Positions 30,118-37,946 of a DNA stretch of 38,015 nucleotides are shown here, one piece after another. A model generated the notes under the pieces. It worked only from the letters and a program-made list of their open reading frames with translations, was not told where the DNA came from and did no database searches. This stretch comes from Hyphomicrobiales bacterium (lineage in GTDB: Bacteria; Pseudomonadota; Alphaproteobacteria; Rhizobiales; Hyphomicrobiaceae). The stretch is taken from contig RXJK01000054.1 of NCBI GenBank assembly GCA_003963125.1, forward strand, positions 1 through 38,015. The letters are read 5' to 3'. How positions within the stretch are numbered: position 1 is the stretch's first letter; every line of letters starts with the position of its first letter. Made by a program: the position numbers and the translations under genes.

Positions 30118-30750
30118 TTACGCCTTCTTACGTGGCGGCGGAGCGGTGTTTTTGTATGACGGCCGCTCGCTGAGTTTGGCCACATAGGCCTGCAGGTTCG
30201 GGAACTTCGCCAGGATTTCCGCTCCCTGCGGGAAGTTTCCAAGGGTCGCCAGCATCGGCAGCACGTTCATGTCGGCATAGGTGAGGCCGTTGCCGACGAG
30301 ATAGCCTGTCGGCGTCACGGCCTTGTCGAGGGCCGCGCAAACGTTCTCGATCTGCGGGAGTGCGGCGGTGATCTTGGCCGTGTCGGGGCCCTTGGCCTTG
30401 TCATAGAAGACCGAGGGCACGACGAACTCGCGCATGATCCAGCGGTCGACCTTGACGTTGCCGAACGAGACCCACTGCTCCACCTGGGCGCAGCCCACCG
30501 TGTCCTCGGGGATGAACTTCGGGCCCGGGAAGGCCTTGTCGATGTAGGTGGCGATGGCCTTGCTCTCGAACAGCTGGACATCGCCGTGGCGCAGGCATGG
30601 CACCTGGCCCGCGGGATGGATAGCCTTGATCTCGTCGCACTGCGGGGCGAGCGGGTTCAGCGTGTAGGCGACGCCCTTCTCCTCGCACAGCATGCGCACG
30701 CTGCGGACGTAGTTGCTGAATGCCACCCCCAGGATTTCGAGCTTCGCCAT
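30118..30750 (-). CDS. Glutathione S-transferase family protein
   Basis: FSNYVRSVRMLCEEKGVAYTLNPL; HPAGQVPCL; LFESKAIATYIDKAF. Confidence 0.92.
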   Translation of the reverse strand: MAKLEILGVAFSNYVRSVRMLCEEKGVAYTLNPLAPQCDEIKAIHPAGQVPCLRHGDVQLFESKAIATYIDKAFPGPKFIPEDTVGCAQVEQWVSFGNVKVDRWIMREFVVPSVFYDKAKGPDTAKITAALPQIENVCAALDKAVTPTGYLVGNGLTYADMNVLPMLATLGNFPQGAEILAKFPNLQAYVAKLSERPSYKNTAPPPRKKA

Positions 30751-30768
30751 GAATCAATTCCTCCGCTT

Positions 30769-31557
30769 TCAGACGATTTTTATGGACATATCGGGCAGGC
30801 CTTCGATCTTGCAGAGCAACGTGTCGCCGACGACGACCGGCCCGACGTTCTCGGGCGTGCCGGAATAGATGATGTCGCCCGCCATCACCTCGTTGGCTTC
30901 CGACAGCTTGGAGATCTGCTCGGCGACGCTCCAGATCATGTGGGCGAGCGTCGCGTCCTGCTTCACGGTGCCGTTGACGGCGAGCGAGATGCGGCCCTTG
31001 GTCGGATGCCCGACCATCTCCACCGGATGGATGGGGCCGATGGGGGCGGAGCGATCGAACGACTTGCCGATTTCCCATGGCTTCTTCTGGTCGCCCATGG
31101 CGCGCTGCAGGTCGCGGCGGGTCATGTCGAGCCCCACGGCATAGCCGAAGACGTGGTCGAGCGCCTTGTCGATCGGGATATCGCGGCCGCCGGACTTCAG
31201 GGCGACGACCAGCTCGCATTCGTAATGGTAGTTTTTGGTGAGCGTGGGATAGGGGTGATCGACGATGCCGTTGGCCGGCACGAGCTGGATGGCGTCGGTC
31301 GGCTTCTGGAAGAAGAAGGGCGGCTCGCGCGTGGGGTCCGAGCCCATCTCGCGGGCGTGGGCGGCATAGTTGCGGCCGATGCAGTAGATGCGGCGAACCG
31401 GGAACTGCTCCTCGCGCCCGACGATCGGGATCAGCGTCTGCTTGATGGGGAACAATGGCTTGGCGGCCGTCTGGGCGTGCACCGTGCCGCCCAGAGCCGT
31501 AGCGCCTGCCAGCAAAGCGCCGCCTGACAGCAGCGCGCGTCGAGCCACATCCGTCAT
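30769..31557 (-). CDS. Fumarylacetoacetate hydrolase family protein (fumarylpyruvate hydrolase-like) with N-terminal Tat/Sec-like signal
   Basis: RRIYCIGRNYAAHAREMGSDPTREPPFFFQKPTDAI; GYAVGLDMTRRDLQ; N-terminus MTDVARRALLSGGALLAGATALGGTVHAQ. Confidence 0.88.
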   Translation of the reverse strand: MTDVARRALLSGGALLAGATALGGTVHAQTAAKPLFPIKQTLIPIVGREEQFPVRRIYCIGRNYAAHAREMGSDPTREPPFFFQKPTDAIQLVPANGIVDHPYPTLTKNYHYECELVVALKSGGRDIPIDKALDHVFGYAVGLDMTRRDLQRAMGDQKKPWEIGKSFDRSAPIGPIHPVEMVGHPTKGRISLAVNGTVKQDATLAHMIWSVAEQISKLSEANEVMAGDIIYSGTPENVGPVVVGDTLLCKIEGLPDMSIKIV

Positions 31558-31708
31558 GTCCTGTCTCCGTCCCTAGAACCGATCCTGCGGGTCTATCGTC
31601 CGCGGCATGCGGTGTCAGCCTCGCTCTTGCGACGAGGTTCTTTGAAATTATTGCCTGTTCGGATGGAGGCAGCAATCGCCTTCGCGATGGCCGTCCGCCT
31701 ACGGCCTC

Positions 31709-33130
<1,422 letters not shown>

Positions 33131-33134
<4 letters not shown>

Positions 33135-34192
33135 GCCGGCTTCTCCACGGCGACGGGTTCGACGGACGCAGGCACTTTGCGGCGGCGCATGCGCTCGGAG
33201 AAGATGCTGACGACGCCGGCGGGTCGCCACAGGCAGATGGCGAGGATCAAGAGCCCGTAGATGATAAGATCGATCGTCTTGCCGGTGCCGCCGAGCCAGA
33301 TACGGCTGTATTCCGACAGGGGCACGAGGATCGCCGCGCCGACAGCGGGGCCCCAGAGCGTGCCGCTGCCGCCGAGCACCGTCATCAGAACGACGATGAC
33401 GGAGATGTCGGTCGAGAAGACGCGTTCGGGGTCGAGGACGAGGATGTACTGCGCATAGAAGGAGCCTGCGACGGCCATCATGGCGGCGGAGAGCATGAAC
33501 GCCATCACCTTGTGGCGTGCGACGGCGATGCCGAGGCTCGCGGCCGCATCGGGTTCGTCACGCACGGCCGTCAGGCGGAAACCGAAGCGGCTGCGGCGCA
33601 GGTACCAGACGAGGGCGAAGCCCAGCGTCGCGGCGCCGAGGGCGAGGTAATAATACGATACCTTGCCGACGTGGAACTGCAGATCCCACCACGGCGAGCC
33701 GCGCTTGATGGGGTAGATCATGCCGGACGCCGCGCCCACATACTCCCAACGCTGGAAGATGATCTGCACGCTCGAGCCGATGAGCAGCGTTGCGATCGCG
33801 AAGTAGTGGCCCTTGAGGCGCAACGTCGGCAGGCCGACGAGCATGGCCGCGATTGCCGCCGCGATCATGCCGAGGAGGACGCCGATCCACGGCGTGCCGC
33901 CGAACTTCACGACGACGACGCCCGTCGCATAGGCGCCGATGCCGAAGAACATCGCGTGGCCGAGGCTGATCTGCCCCGAGATGCCGGCCATGACGTTCCA
34001 GGCCTGCGCCATCAGCGCGTAGAGGAAGATCATGATCATGACGTGGTGCGAGAACGTCGAGGTGCCGGCCAGCGGGAAAACCACGAGGGCAATGGCGAGC
34101 AGGGCGCCGAGTGCGATCGCCCACACGGGCGGACGCGGCCAAAGCGGTTCGGCCCGAGCTGCCTCGAGAAGACGCGTCTTATCGGTCGTCAT
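33131..34192 (-). CDS. ABC transporter permease, LivM family (system 2)
   Basis: MAGISGQISLGHAMFFGIGAYATGVVV; overlaps livG start. Confidence 0.93.
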
Positions 34193-34195
34193 GGA

Positions 34196-35059
34196 TCAGA
34201 ACCTGCCGAACAGACCAGTGGGACGAGCGATGACGACGGCGAGGTAGAGACCGAACACGACGAGCGCCTTGTAGGAGGGATCGAACAGCACGCCGCCGAT
34301 GCTCTCCACGAGCCCGATCAGCACGCCGGCGACGAGGCTGCCGAGAATGCTTCCGAAGCCGCCCAGCGCCACCGCCACGAAGGCGAGCGTAGCAAAATTC
34401 ACGCCGACATCCGGAAAGATGTAGAAGAATGTCGAAAGCATGCTGCCCGCGACGCCGACACAGCCGAGGCCGATGGCCCAGCCCAGCGCCGACATGCGCT
34501 CCGTCGGGATACCCATGACCGCGGCGGCCTGCCGGTCCTGCGCGGTGGCCTGAAGTGCCAGGCCCGTCTCGGTGCGCGTGACGAAGAGCCACAGCAGGAT
34601 GAAGGCCAAGAGGCAGATGCCGCCGGCCACGAGTTGCGGTTGCCCGATGAATATTCCACCAGCCTGAACGCGGCCCGCGATCCAGGGATTGGTGATCGTA
34701 CGAAAGTCCGGAGACCAGAGGAACTGTGCGCCCGCGCGCAGCGCGACGGCGAGCCCGAATGTGCCGCAGACTTGGGCAAGCATCGGCGCGGTCAGCAGTC
34801 TCCGGATGATCCCGTAGTGCACGGCGAGACCGCTCAGGCCAAGGATGATCACCACGAGAGGCAATGAAATGAGGGGATCGAGGCCCAGCACCCAGAACCA
34901 GAACGATGCGAACATGGCGAGCATGAGAAACTCGCCATGTGCAAAATTTACGATCTCCATGAGCCCAAAAATCAGGCTCAGGCCTACGGCGACCAACGCG
35001 TAGATGAGGCCCATGAGAAGGCCGCTGACGACGGCTTGGATGAGGACTTCGCTAGACAA
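34196..35059 (-). CDS. ABC transporter permease, LivH family (system 2; TTG start)
   Basis: SSEVLIQAVVSGLLMGLIYALVAVGLSLIFGLMEIVNFAHGEFLML. Confidence 0.92.
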   Translation of the reverse strand: MSSEVLIQAVVSGLLMGLIYALVAVGLSLIFGLMEIVNFAHGEFLMLAMFASFWFWVLGLDPLISLPLVVIILGLSGLAVHYGIIRRLLTAPMLAQVCGTFGLAVALRAGAQFLWSPDFRTITNPWIAGRVQAGGIFIGQPQLVAGGICLLAFILLWLFVTRTETGLALQATAQDRQAAAVMGIPTERMSALGWAIGLGCVGVAGSMLSTFFYIFPDVGVNFATLAFVAVALGGFGSILGSLVAGVLIGLVESIGGVLFDPSYKALVVFGLYLAVVIARPTGLFGRF

Positions 35060-35082
35060 TTGACGAACGCTCCAGAAACACG

Positions 35083-35106
35083 GCGTAATCCGGCCCGACG
35101 TTACGC
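35083..35106. promoter_or_regulatory. Inverted repeat in the divergent livH/SBP promoter region
   Basis: GCGTAA-N12-TTACGC. Confidence 0.35.
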
Positions 35107-35126
35107 ACCTAAAAGGAGTGAGGTCA

Positions 35127-36389
35127 ATGAACCCCTTGAAACTCGCTTGCGCAGCGGCCGTGCTTTTTGCCGGCACCGTTGCGGCGCAAGCCCAAGAGGA
35201 AGTCCGCATCGGCGGGCTGTACCCGTTGTCGGGTCCGGTCGCGCAGGTCGGTATCGATGCCGTCGCTGCCCTGAAGACGGTTGTCGAGATCGTTAACGAG
35301 GGCGCCGATCTCCCACTTCCACTCGCCAAGTCGAAAGGCTTGCCGGGGCTCAAGGGTGCGAAGATCAAACTCTTCATCGCCGACCACCAGGGCAAGCCCG
35401 AAGTCGGCCTCAGCGAAACGGAACGCCTCATCACGCAGGACAAGGTGCACGCCATGATCGGCGCGTACTTCTCCTCCGTCACGGTGGCCGCGAGCCAGGC
35501 AACGGAGCGTGCCGGCGTGCCCTTCATGAACGGCTCGTCGACCTCGCCTGCACTCACCGAGCGCGGCTTCCAGTTCTTCTTCCGCACCACGCCGACGGAT
35601 GAAGATTTCTCGAAGCTGATGTTCGACTTCATGAAGGATCTGTCCGCCAAGACGGGCAAGAAGATCGAGAGCGTGTCGCTCTTCCACGAGGACACGGCCT
35701 ACGGGTCCGACAGCGCGAAGGTGCAGAATCGTCTCGCCAAGGAGCAGGGCTACAAGGTTCTCGAGGACATCACCTACAAGGCGCAGACGACGTCGCTCTC
35801 CTCGGAAGTGCAGCGCCTGAAGGCTGCCAACGCCGACGCGTTGCTGCCCTCCTCCTATACGTCCGACACGTTCCTGCTGCTCCGGACGTCGAAGGAACTC
35901 GACTACAATCCCAAGCTGATCGTGGCGCAGAATGCGGGCTTCACCGATCCCACGTTCATCAGCACGATGGGCAAGGACGCGGAAGGCGCCATCACGCGCT
36001 CGCCCTACAACGGCGATCTCGCCAAGCGCATTCCGCTGATCACGAAGGTCAACGAGATCTTCAAGAAGCACTCGAACGGTCGCGACCTGTCCGACGTGCC
36101 GGCGCGTGAGGTCACGGCCATGTTCACGCTGCTCGATGCGTTCAACCGCGCCGGCTCGACCGACCCGGAGAAGGTGCGTGCGGCACTGGCGGCGACGGAC
36201 ATCCCGCCCGATCAGCTGATCGTTCCCTACAAGGGCGTGAAGTTCGACGCGAAGGGGCAGAACACCCTGGTGCGACCGATCCTGATGCAGGTGCAGAAGG
36301 GCGCCTACTGCACGGTCTATCCGTTCGAGCTTGCGAGCTGCGACGTGCAGTATCCGATCCCGACGTGGGCCGAGAAGGCGAAGATGTAA
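35127..36389 (+). CDS. Branched-chain amino acid-type ABC transporter substrate-binding protein (system 2)
   Basis: Signal peptide; EEVRIGGLYPLSGPVAQVGIDAVAALKTVVE; SD aaaaggagtgaggtca. Confidence 0.93.
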   Translation: MNPLKLACAAAVLFAGTVAAQAQEEVRIGGLYPLSGPVAQVGIDAVAALKTVVEIVNEGADLPLPLAKSKGLPGLKGAKIKLFIADHQGKPEVGLSETERLITQDKVHAMIGAYFSSVTVAASQATERAGVPFMNGSSTSPALTERGFQFFFRTTPTDEDFSKLMFDFMKDLSAKTGKKIESVSLFHEDTAYGSDSAKVQNRLAKEQGYKVLEDITYKAQTTSLSSEVQRLKAANADALLPSSYTSDTFLLLRTSKELDYNPKLIVAQNAGFTDPTFISTMGKDAEGAITRSPYNGDLAKRIPLITKVNEIFKKHSNGRDLSDVPAREVTAMFTLLDAFNRAGSTDPEKVRAALAATDIPPDQLIVPYKGVKFDAKGQNTLVRPILMQVQKGAYCTVYPFELASCDVQYPIPTWAEKAKM

Positions 36390-36461: not shown

Positions 36462-37145
36462 TCAAGCCCGACCGGTGAAGACCGAAAATTCCAAGCCACC
36501 GTCGAAGGGAAGGGTCATGCTCGTGAAGCCGCGAGCTGGATCGCGCACGAATGCCAGGTAGTCCGCATAGTCGGACCTCTGGATTTGCGTGTTGTCGCAG
36601 ACGACCACGGCACCGGGCCGCAGGTGCGGGGCAACGAGCTCGATGGCTGCGCGTGCGTAGCGGATCCAGATGTCGACCAGGACGAAATCGATCGCAGGCG
36701 GCAGCGTCTTCAGGGTCTCGCGGAAATCGCCCTCGCGCAGGTCGATGAGATCGGCCACGCCGGCGGCAGCGAAGTTGGCGCGTGCTTGCGCTGCTTTCGA
36801 CGGCTCGTACTCGGTCGCCACGACAATGCCTTCGCCACCCAGCGCGGCGAGGTTGGCGCGAACGGCTGCAGCCAGATAGAGCGTTGAGACGCCGAACGAG
36901 GTACCGATTTCAATGACGCGTCGGGCGCCCGTCGCGCGGCAGAGCCGGGTGCAGAACTCCGCCTTGTCTCTGTCGAGCGCCACCAGCTTGTCGCGCCGAA
37001 AGGTTTTCAGATCCTCTTCCGATACGGTCGAACCGGCGGCTCTGCGATCGGCTTCGAAGGCTGCGAGCGCCGCGGTCTGCGCGTCGCTGAGGGCGTGCAG
37101 GCGCGAGAGCACACCTTGCAGGGCGGGATCGGTGGTCAACGGCAT
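36462..37145 (-). CDS. Class I SAM-dependent O-methyltransferase
   Basis: ARRVIEIGTSFGVSTLYLAAAVR; VVATEYEPSKAAQARANFAAAG; DFVLVDIW. Confidence 0.88.
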   Translation of the reverse strand: MPLTTDPALQGVLSRLHALSDAQTAALAAFEADRRAAGSTVSEEDLKTFRRDKLVALDRDKAEFCTRLCRATGARRVIEIGTSFGVSTLYLAAAVRANLAALGGEGIVVATEYEPSKAAQARANFAAAGVADLIDLREGDFRETLKTLPPAIDFVLVDIWIRYARAAIELVAPHLRPGAVVVCDNTQIQRSDYADYLAFVRDPARGFTSMTLPFDGGLEFSVFTGRA

Positions 37146-37149
37146 GGTG

Positions 37150-37230
37150 CTCCCTTCGCTGGCATGACCCAGGCAGGTTCGACGGGTGTGATCTCAGCCC
37201 GCACGTCGCGGGCACCCCGGTGTCCTCACC
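37150..37230 (-). promoter_or_regulatory. TPP riboswitch (THI box) immediately upstream of the O-methyltransferase gene
   Basis: Minus strand: ggtgaggacaCCGGGGTGCCcgcgacgtgcggGCTGAGAtcacACCCGTcGAACCTGcCTGGgtcATGCCAGCGaAGGGAgcaccATG; matches thiM/thiC-type aptamer conserved blocks. Confidence 0.9.
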
Positions 37231-37273: not shown

Positions 37274-37816
37274 TTACGAGGAGCGCAACGTTGCGCGCTG
37301 TGATCTTTGTGCGCGCTTGGCTGGCCTCGGCGCCGCAGATGCTTTCACCGGCAGCGGCAGCTTCGTCGTCTGCTTGAGGCGGTCGAGGACGATCGAGGAG
37401 CGGACCTGCGCCACGCTGCCGTGCGGCAGCAGCACGTCGTTGAGGATGCGCGAAAGTCTTTCGAGGTCGGGCACGATGAGCTTCATCAGGTAGTCGGCCT
37501 CGCCGGTGAGGGAGTAGGCCTCCTGCACTGCGTCGAGACCGTCGATCAGCTTCTGGAAGCGGCGCGAATTGTCCGGGGAGTGCGCGGCGAGGCGGACCTG
37601 CACGAACACGGTGATGCGCAGGCCTAACGCCTCGGCGGACAGGCACGCCCGATAGGCCTCGATGATGCCCTGGGCTTCGAGGGCCGCGCGCCGGCGCGAG
37701 CATTGCGAGGGCGATAGCCCCGCCTTCTCCGCGAGTTCGAAATTGGTCAGACGGCCTTCGTCCTGCAGCGCTGCCAGGAGCCGCAGGTCGATCTCGTCGA
37801 TGCTCGATGTTTGCAT
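37274..37816 (-). CDS. Lrp/AsnC family transcriptional regulator
   Basis: IDEIDLRLLAALQDEGRLTNFELAEKAGLSPSQCSRRRAALEAQGIIEAYRA. Confidence 0.93.
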   Translation of the reverse strand: MQTSSIDEIDLRLLAALQDEGRLTNFELAEKAGLSPSQCSRRRAALEAQGIIEAYRACLSAEALGLRITVFVQVRLAAHSPDNSRRFQKLIDGLDAVQEAYSLTGEADYLMKLIVPDLERLSRILNDVLLPHGSVAQVRSSIVLDRLKQTTKLPLPVKASAAPRPAKRAQRSQRATLRSS

Positions 37817-37946
37817 GTTTTCATTCCAAAACGCACGAACTGTGCGGTATAGGACTGCCATTCGACGTGAATGCAAGCACATTGCAGGCCGTGTGCGCTA
37901 GTCTGATTTGCATCGGAAATTGCAGCGCCAGCCACGAGGACGCGCC

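Follow-up and report, generated by a model that had tools for sequence, protein, structure and literature searches.

In a 38,015-nt stretch of a Hyphomicrobiales genome (contig RXJK01000054.1; here called the window), a solitary gene for a SAM-dependent O-methyltransferase (OMT) is probably fronted by a thiamin pyrophosphate (TPP) riboswitch of the thiO subtype, through which TPP represses translation of the enzyme. TPP riboswitches normally shut down vitamin B1 genes. They predict thiamin genes well, and a leader found before an unrelated gene is readily written off as an orphan. The case described here combines a known riboswitch class and a known mode of control with an unexpected target gene. 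TPP as the ligand, OFF logic, and translational control of the OMT are predictions; the pairing of aptamer and OMT is itself retained across three genomes that belong to two families.

Aptamer and target gene in the window

The Rfam TPP model (RF00059) matched positions 37229 to 37134 of the minus strand with 56.4 bits and an E value of 1.3e-08, and TPP was the sole RNA family matched by cmscan with the Rfam library in the whole window. The initial annotation had recognized a TPP riboswitch from its conserved blocks and had proposed the Rfam model on this strand as a check; the score lies above the gathering score of 54.3 and confirms the identity. The conserved core (37218 to 37151) is complete in the cmscan alignment and the leader table (GGGGUG, UGAGA, ACCC, GAACCUG, P5, and CG.AGGGA), and its blocks follow one another on the minus strand in the order originally described, i.e., GGGGT (37218 to 37214), P3 (37213 to 37197), TGAGA (37196 to 37192), ACCC (37187 to 37184), GAACCTG (37180 to 37174), the CTGG/CCAG strands of P5 (37172 to 37169/37162 to 37159), and AAGGGA (37156 to 37151).

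The aptamer departs from the model at two sites, the P1 stem and J4/5. The difficulty of seeing a P1 pairing by eye had a real basis: three of the five P1 pairs of the model fail in the cmscan alignment, and no contiguous helix longer than 1 bp flanks the core. In place of the AU of the Rfam consensus, J4/5 has a lone C (C37173); it comprises two nucleotides in all 149 other TPP cores among the matches listed when 397 genomes of the order were scanned.

The last block has the position required of a ribosome-binding site. AGGGA (37155 to 37151, minus strand), the 3' strand of P4, is also the presumed Shine-Dalgarno sequence of the OMT, as suggested from the first; the spacer GCACC (37150 to 37146) sets it 5 nt from the ATG at 37145. 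The OMT gene (minus strand, 36462 to 37145; 227 amino acids) alone follows the aptamer. The absence of an adjacent thi gene, already remarked upon, is thus upheld, and the target is not a gene of thiamin biosynthesis, salvage, or transport. The OMT is intact, with matches to Methyltransf_24 (PF13578; 67.5 bits) and Methyltransf_3 (PF01596; 42.9 bits) above their cutoffs, and it keeps all residues that are invariant across 20 aligned homologues.

Recurrence of the pairing and the one-nucleotide J4/5 subtype

Two further genomes carry the pair. Among the 397 genomes scanned, one other (G648) has a close OMT orthologue, and a scan of 214 genomes of the genus of G648 gave a second (in G912); both genomes belong to a different family of the same order as the window, and their OMTs are 59 to 61% identical to the window OMT. 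A TPP element lies directly on the OMT start codon in each, with a one-nucleotide J4/5 and no P3a in G648 and with the same J4/5 deletion and a retained P1 (GCUU/AAGC) in G912. RF00059 scores above the cutoff in all three OMT leaders (window, 56.4 bits; G648, 58.1 bits; G912, 69.7 bits), and the AGGGA/start codon layout of the window is repeated in the other two. Conservation of the pair in relatives, which the initial annotation had put forward as a check, was therefore found in G648 and G912 and not in most of the homologues fetched: no TPP element occurs in the flanks of 24 OMT homologues from genome contigs (19 of them at 49 to 64% identity) or with a more distant homologue, G1025, in the scan of the genus of G648.

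The three OMT leaders have in common a P3 pattern and a CC preceding GGGG that occur in none of 39 thi leaders, which argues for one origin and against independent capture. In the OMT tree, the three aptamer-bearing proteins fall within one clade of eight, together with five members lacking the aptamer, and are not grouped with one another; the well-supported branches force at most one change. We infer either a single origin followed by losses or a transfer of the TPP-OMT unit between families.

Outside the OMT leaders, the shortened J4/5 is a common feature of thiamin leaders. A pattern search detected one-nucleotide J4/5 cores in 54 of 229 genomes of the family of G648 (f35), and all 39 leaders read (L176 to L194 and L200 to L219, with OMT leaders excluded) precede thiO or thiS-thiG, these genes having been named by eye from sequence with Pfam agreement for one of each (DAO, ThiS, and ThiG). 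Like the OMT leaders, they have no P3a and a one-nucleotide J4/5, P5 is CTGG/CCAG in nearly all, and in most of them the start codon lies a few bases after AGGGA. They differ from the OMT leaders in target gene and in lacking the P3 pattern and CC linker of the latter. Since the deletion is common in thiO and thiS-thiG leaders, it represents variation within the TPP family, i.e., an ordinary thiamin leader subtype, and is not a sign of a new ligand. By sequence, the OMT leaders are assigned to this thiO-type TPP subtype. A TPP subtype of this lineage, with a one-nucleotide J4/5 and the ribosome site inside the core, can score near the Rfam cutoff and so be missed. A separate observation concerns the end of an IMG/VR contig (L196, 8004 to 8031), which matches the 3' half of a TPP core with the shortened J4/5, lacks a clear 5' half, and is possibly host DNA.

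Proposed translational control and alternative readings

A mode acting directly on the ribosome site has been described for TPP riboswitches ("direct translation attenuation" [Barrick and Breaker 2007, PMC2258182]). The window shares with these riboswitches the core blocks, an above-cutoff score, and AGGGA as a Shine-Dalgarno sequence inside the aptamer core with the ATG just after it; it differs in that its target is not a thiamin gene, P1 is missing, and J4/5 is one nucleotide short. In the mechanism that we propose, AGG(G) would serve at once as the 3' strand of P4 and as the Shine-Dalgarno sequence. Plentiful TPP would bind the aptamer, P4 would close over AGGGA, and ribosomes would be unable to start on the OMT; with scarce TPP, the ribosome site would be free and the OMT would be made.

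Several observations weigh against control by TPP. When leaders of 114 nt are folded, that of the window has the TPP fold as its predicted minimum; this fold costs 2.0 kcal/mol in G912 and 5.9 kcal/mol in G648, compared to 0.2 to 4.2 kcal/mol in ten thi leaders. The stability of the window fold does not exceed that of shuffled sequences (z, 0.45), however, and a fold other than that of TPP is preferred with longer flanks; folding is therefore weak evidence. In addition, most OMT homologues have no aptamer, the tree does not group the three that do, and these three are the only members known. Finally, P1 is absent from the window and G648 leaders. This stem is kept by nearly all thi leaders of f35 (37 of the 39 have 4 bp or more) and, among the OMT leaders, by that of G912 (likewise 4 bp or more), whereas those of the window and G648 have no more than 2 bp; the window leader may consequently switch weakly or not at all.

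The main rival reading, in which switching is weak or absent, starts from this loss: a thiO-type 5' untranslated region with a good Shine-Dalgarno sequence would have been recruited and kept, and in the window and G648 the loss of P1 would have abolished regulation or made it weaker. The short or missing P1 and the score of the window leader close to the cutoff are consistent with such a capture. Nevertheless, a plain ribosome-binding site would have no need of UGAGA, P2, P3, P4, P5, and the loop blocks, all of which are kept; P3 shows compensatory changes among the OMT leaders (e.g., C-G in the window to U-A in G648), and G912 retains P1. We regard recruitment for ribosome binding as improbable, though worth keeping in view.

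Conservation of the core bears on a second alternative, raised in the initial annotation, that the aptamer is a functionless relic left from a deleted thi gene, or that it was moved to the OMT by a recent rearrangement. This was favored at first because of the P1 and J4/5 defects and because the genus has neither the OMT nor a second TPP element. It was set aside, and is now strongly disfavored as an unlikely explanation, on the identical junction in G648 and G912. The three OMT aptamers are 81 to 85% identical to one another, while the likeness of the 120 nt upstream of them is at the level of shuffled sequences and their proteins share 59 to 65% identity, with 39 to 40% identity at third codon positions. 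Barring three independent captures, an unselected leader would lose its core over such divergence, and a one-nucleotide J4/5 is normal for thiO leaders.

J4/5 sits in the pyrophosphate-binding part of the TPP aptamer, as seen in crystal structures, and a one-nucleotide J4/5 might thus recognize a compound other than TPP, e.g., a phosphorylated precursor or the product of the OMT. An altered ligand was considered when G648 proved to share the deletion, which is common to all three OMT leaders, and was dropped once the deletion was found to be common in thiO and thiS-thiG leaders: it occurs in the 54 f35 genomes, and the 39 leaders read precede thiazole synthesis genes, whose riboswitches would be expected to bind TPP. 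A change of ligand is thus very unlikely. An assembly artefact, conceivable in a draft genome of 410 contigs, or a chance match has a negligible probability given the E value and the same junction in two other genomes, one of which (G912) is assembled as a single contig. Control of the OMT by TPP is the reading that we retain.

Genomic setting and possible role of the methyltransferase

Upstream of the riboswitch lies a gene for an Lrp/AsnC-family regulator (minus strand, 37274 to 37840; Pfam), which belongs to the surroundings and lies outside the TPP-OMT unit. In the present genome, as in four relatives, the Lrp-type gene is paired with a divergent hydroxyphenylpyruvate dioxygenase (HPPD) gene (PF14696), and neither an OMT nor a TPP element accompanies the pair in the four relatives. 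Genomes of the same genus contain no OMT of this subfamily and at most one TPP element each. The bare Lrp/HPPD pair in relatives and the absences across the genus identify the TPP-OMT unit as an arrival in this species.

The region adjoining the OMT (window positions 30118 to 36389) encodes a branched-chain-type ABC transporter (two permeases, two ATPases, and a substrate-binding protein), an FAH-family hydrolase, and a GST; these genes and the Lrp/HPPD pair could belong to aromatic amino acid catabolism. In another genome of the genus (G005; L107, 10373 to 12199), Lrp and HPPD are separated by a gene whose product is a TPP-dependent ferredoxin oxidoreductase (POR_N and TPP_enzyme_C), likely of the indolepyruvate type.

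The source genome has a second TPP element (C102:50160-50272; 65.8 bits), which lies 113 nt before the contig end and runs into a response-regulator-like gene there. No thiC was found in the source assembly. In genomes of the same genus that hold both on one contig, the TPP element precedes thiC, in some cases separated from it by a small gene. This order and the contig end suggest that thiC of the source genome is probably in an assembly gap, and the idea that the aptamer was orphaned by thiC loss was rejected on the same grounds. Across the family of the window, a non-thi gene often comes between the TPP element of the thiC operon and thiC itself; it encodes either a small membrane protein or one resembling a response regulator (L054, L116, L117, L114, L106, L049, and L043). 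A degenerate TPP element with a changed UGAGA region (L135; G030:C93:21398-21485; 37.5 bits) stands upstream of a gene for a small membrane protein and thiC.

The OMT family carries an invariant DIW and DN motif across the 20 aligned homologues, which we take to resemble that of catechol-type O-methyltransferases. The solved relatives are distant, and all are named methyltransferases, mostly putative O-methyltransferases. The SAM-binding motif and the DN active-site region align with those of Family 3/Methyltransf_24 O-methyltransferases (PDB 8c9v and 6jcl), from which the OMT differs as a distinct subfamily with invariant DIW and DN and, in a profile search, no NCBIfam name.

A role of the enzyme in thiamin metabolism, as proposed in the initial annotation, was not borne out by its homologues. 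The 19 homologues at 49 to 64% identity have no TPP element, none of the thi marker proteins used was found near any OMT homologue apart from generic ABC transporter matches, and no informative conserved neighborhood surrounds them. The search for homologues inside thi operons likewise found none beside the thi markers tested. Plasmid homologues are <60% identical, and no thi gene was seen among the neighbors of the best of them.

A partial precedent exists in the bacimethrin/thiaminase I operons of paenibacilli, in which, as in the window, a SAM methyltransferase is under a predicted TPP riboswitch (PMC5627462). By gene content, the two differ in that the methyltransferase of these operons is located among thi and bacimethrin genes, whereas the OMT is solitary; no bacimethrin partner (thymidylate synthase homologue, glycosyltransferase, pyrimidine kinase, or thiaminase I) was recognized on visual inspection of the genes surrounding the OMT in the window or in G648. 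A literature search of open-access papers found no published TPP riboswitch governing a lone O-methyltransferase.

The recurrent pairing suggests an unrecognized link between the OMT and thiamin. Tentatively, and with considerable doubt, we postulate that the OMT may act in thiamin biology, for example with a precursor or breakdown product of thiamin as its methyl acceptor, or in the synthesis or inactivation of a bacimethrin-like methoxy antivitamin; it would then be a TPP-controlled enzyme newly placed in the thiamin regulon and passed between bacterial families with its switch. The retention of the pairing through deep protein divergence in three genomes singles out one particular enzyme that may take part in the metabolism of thiamin or of antivitamins.
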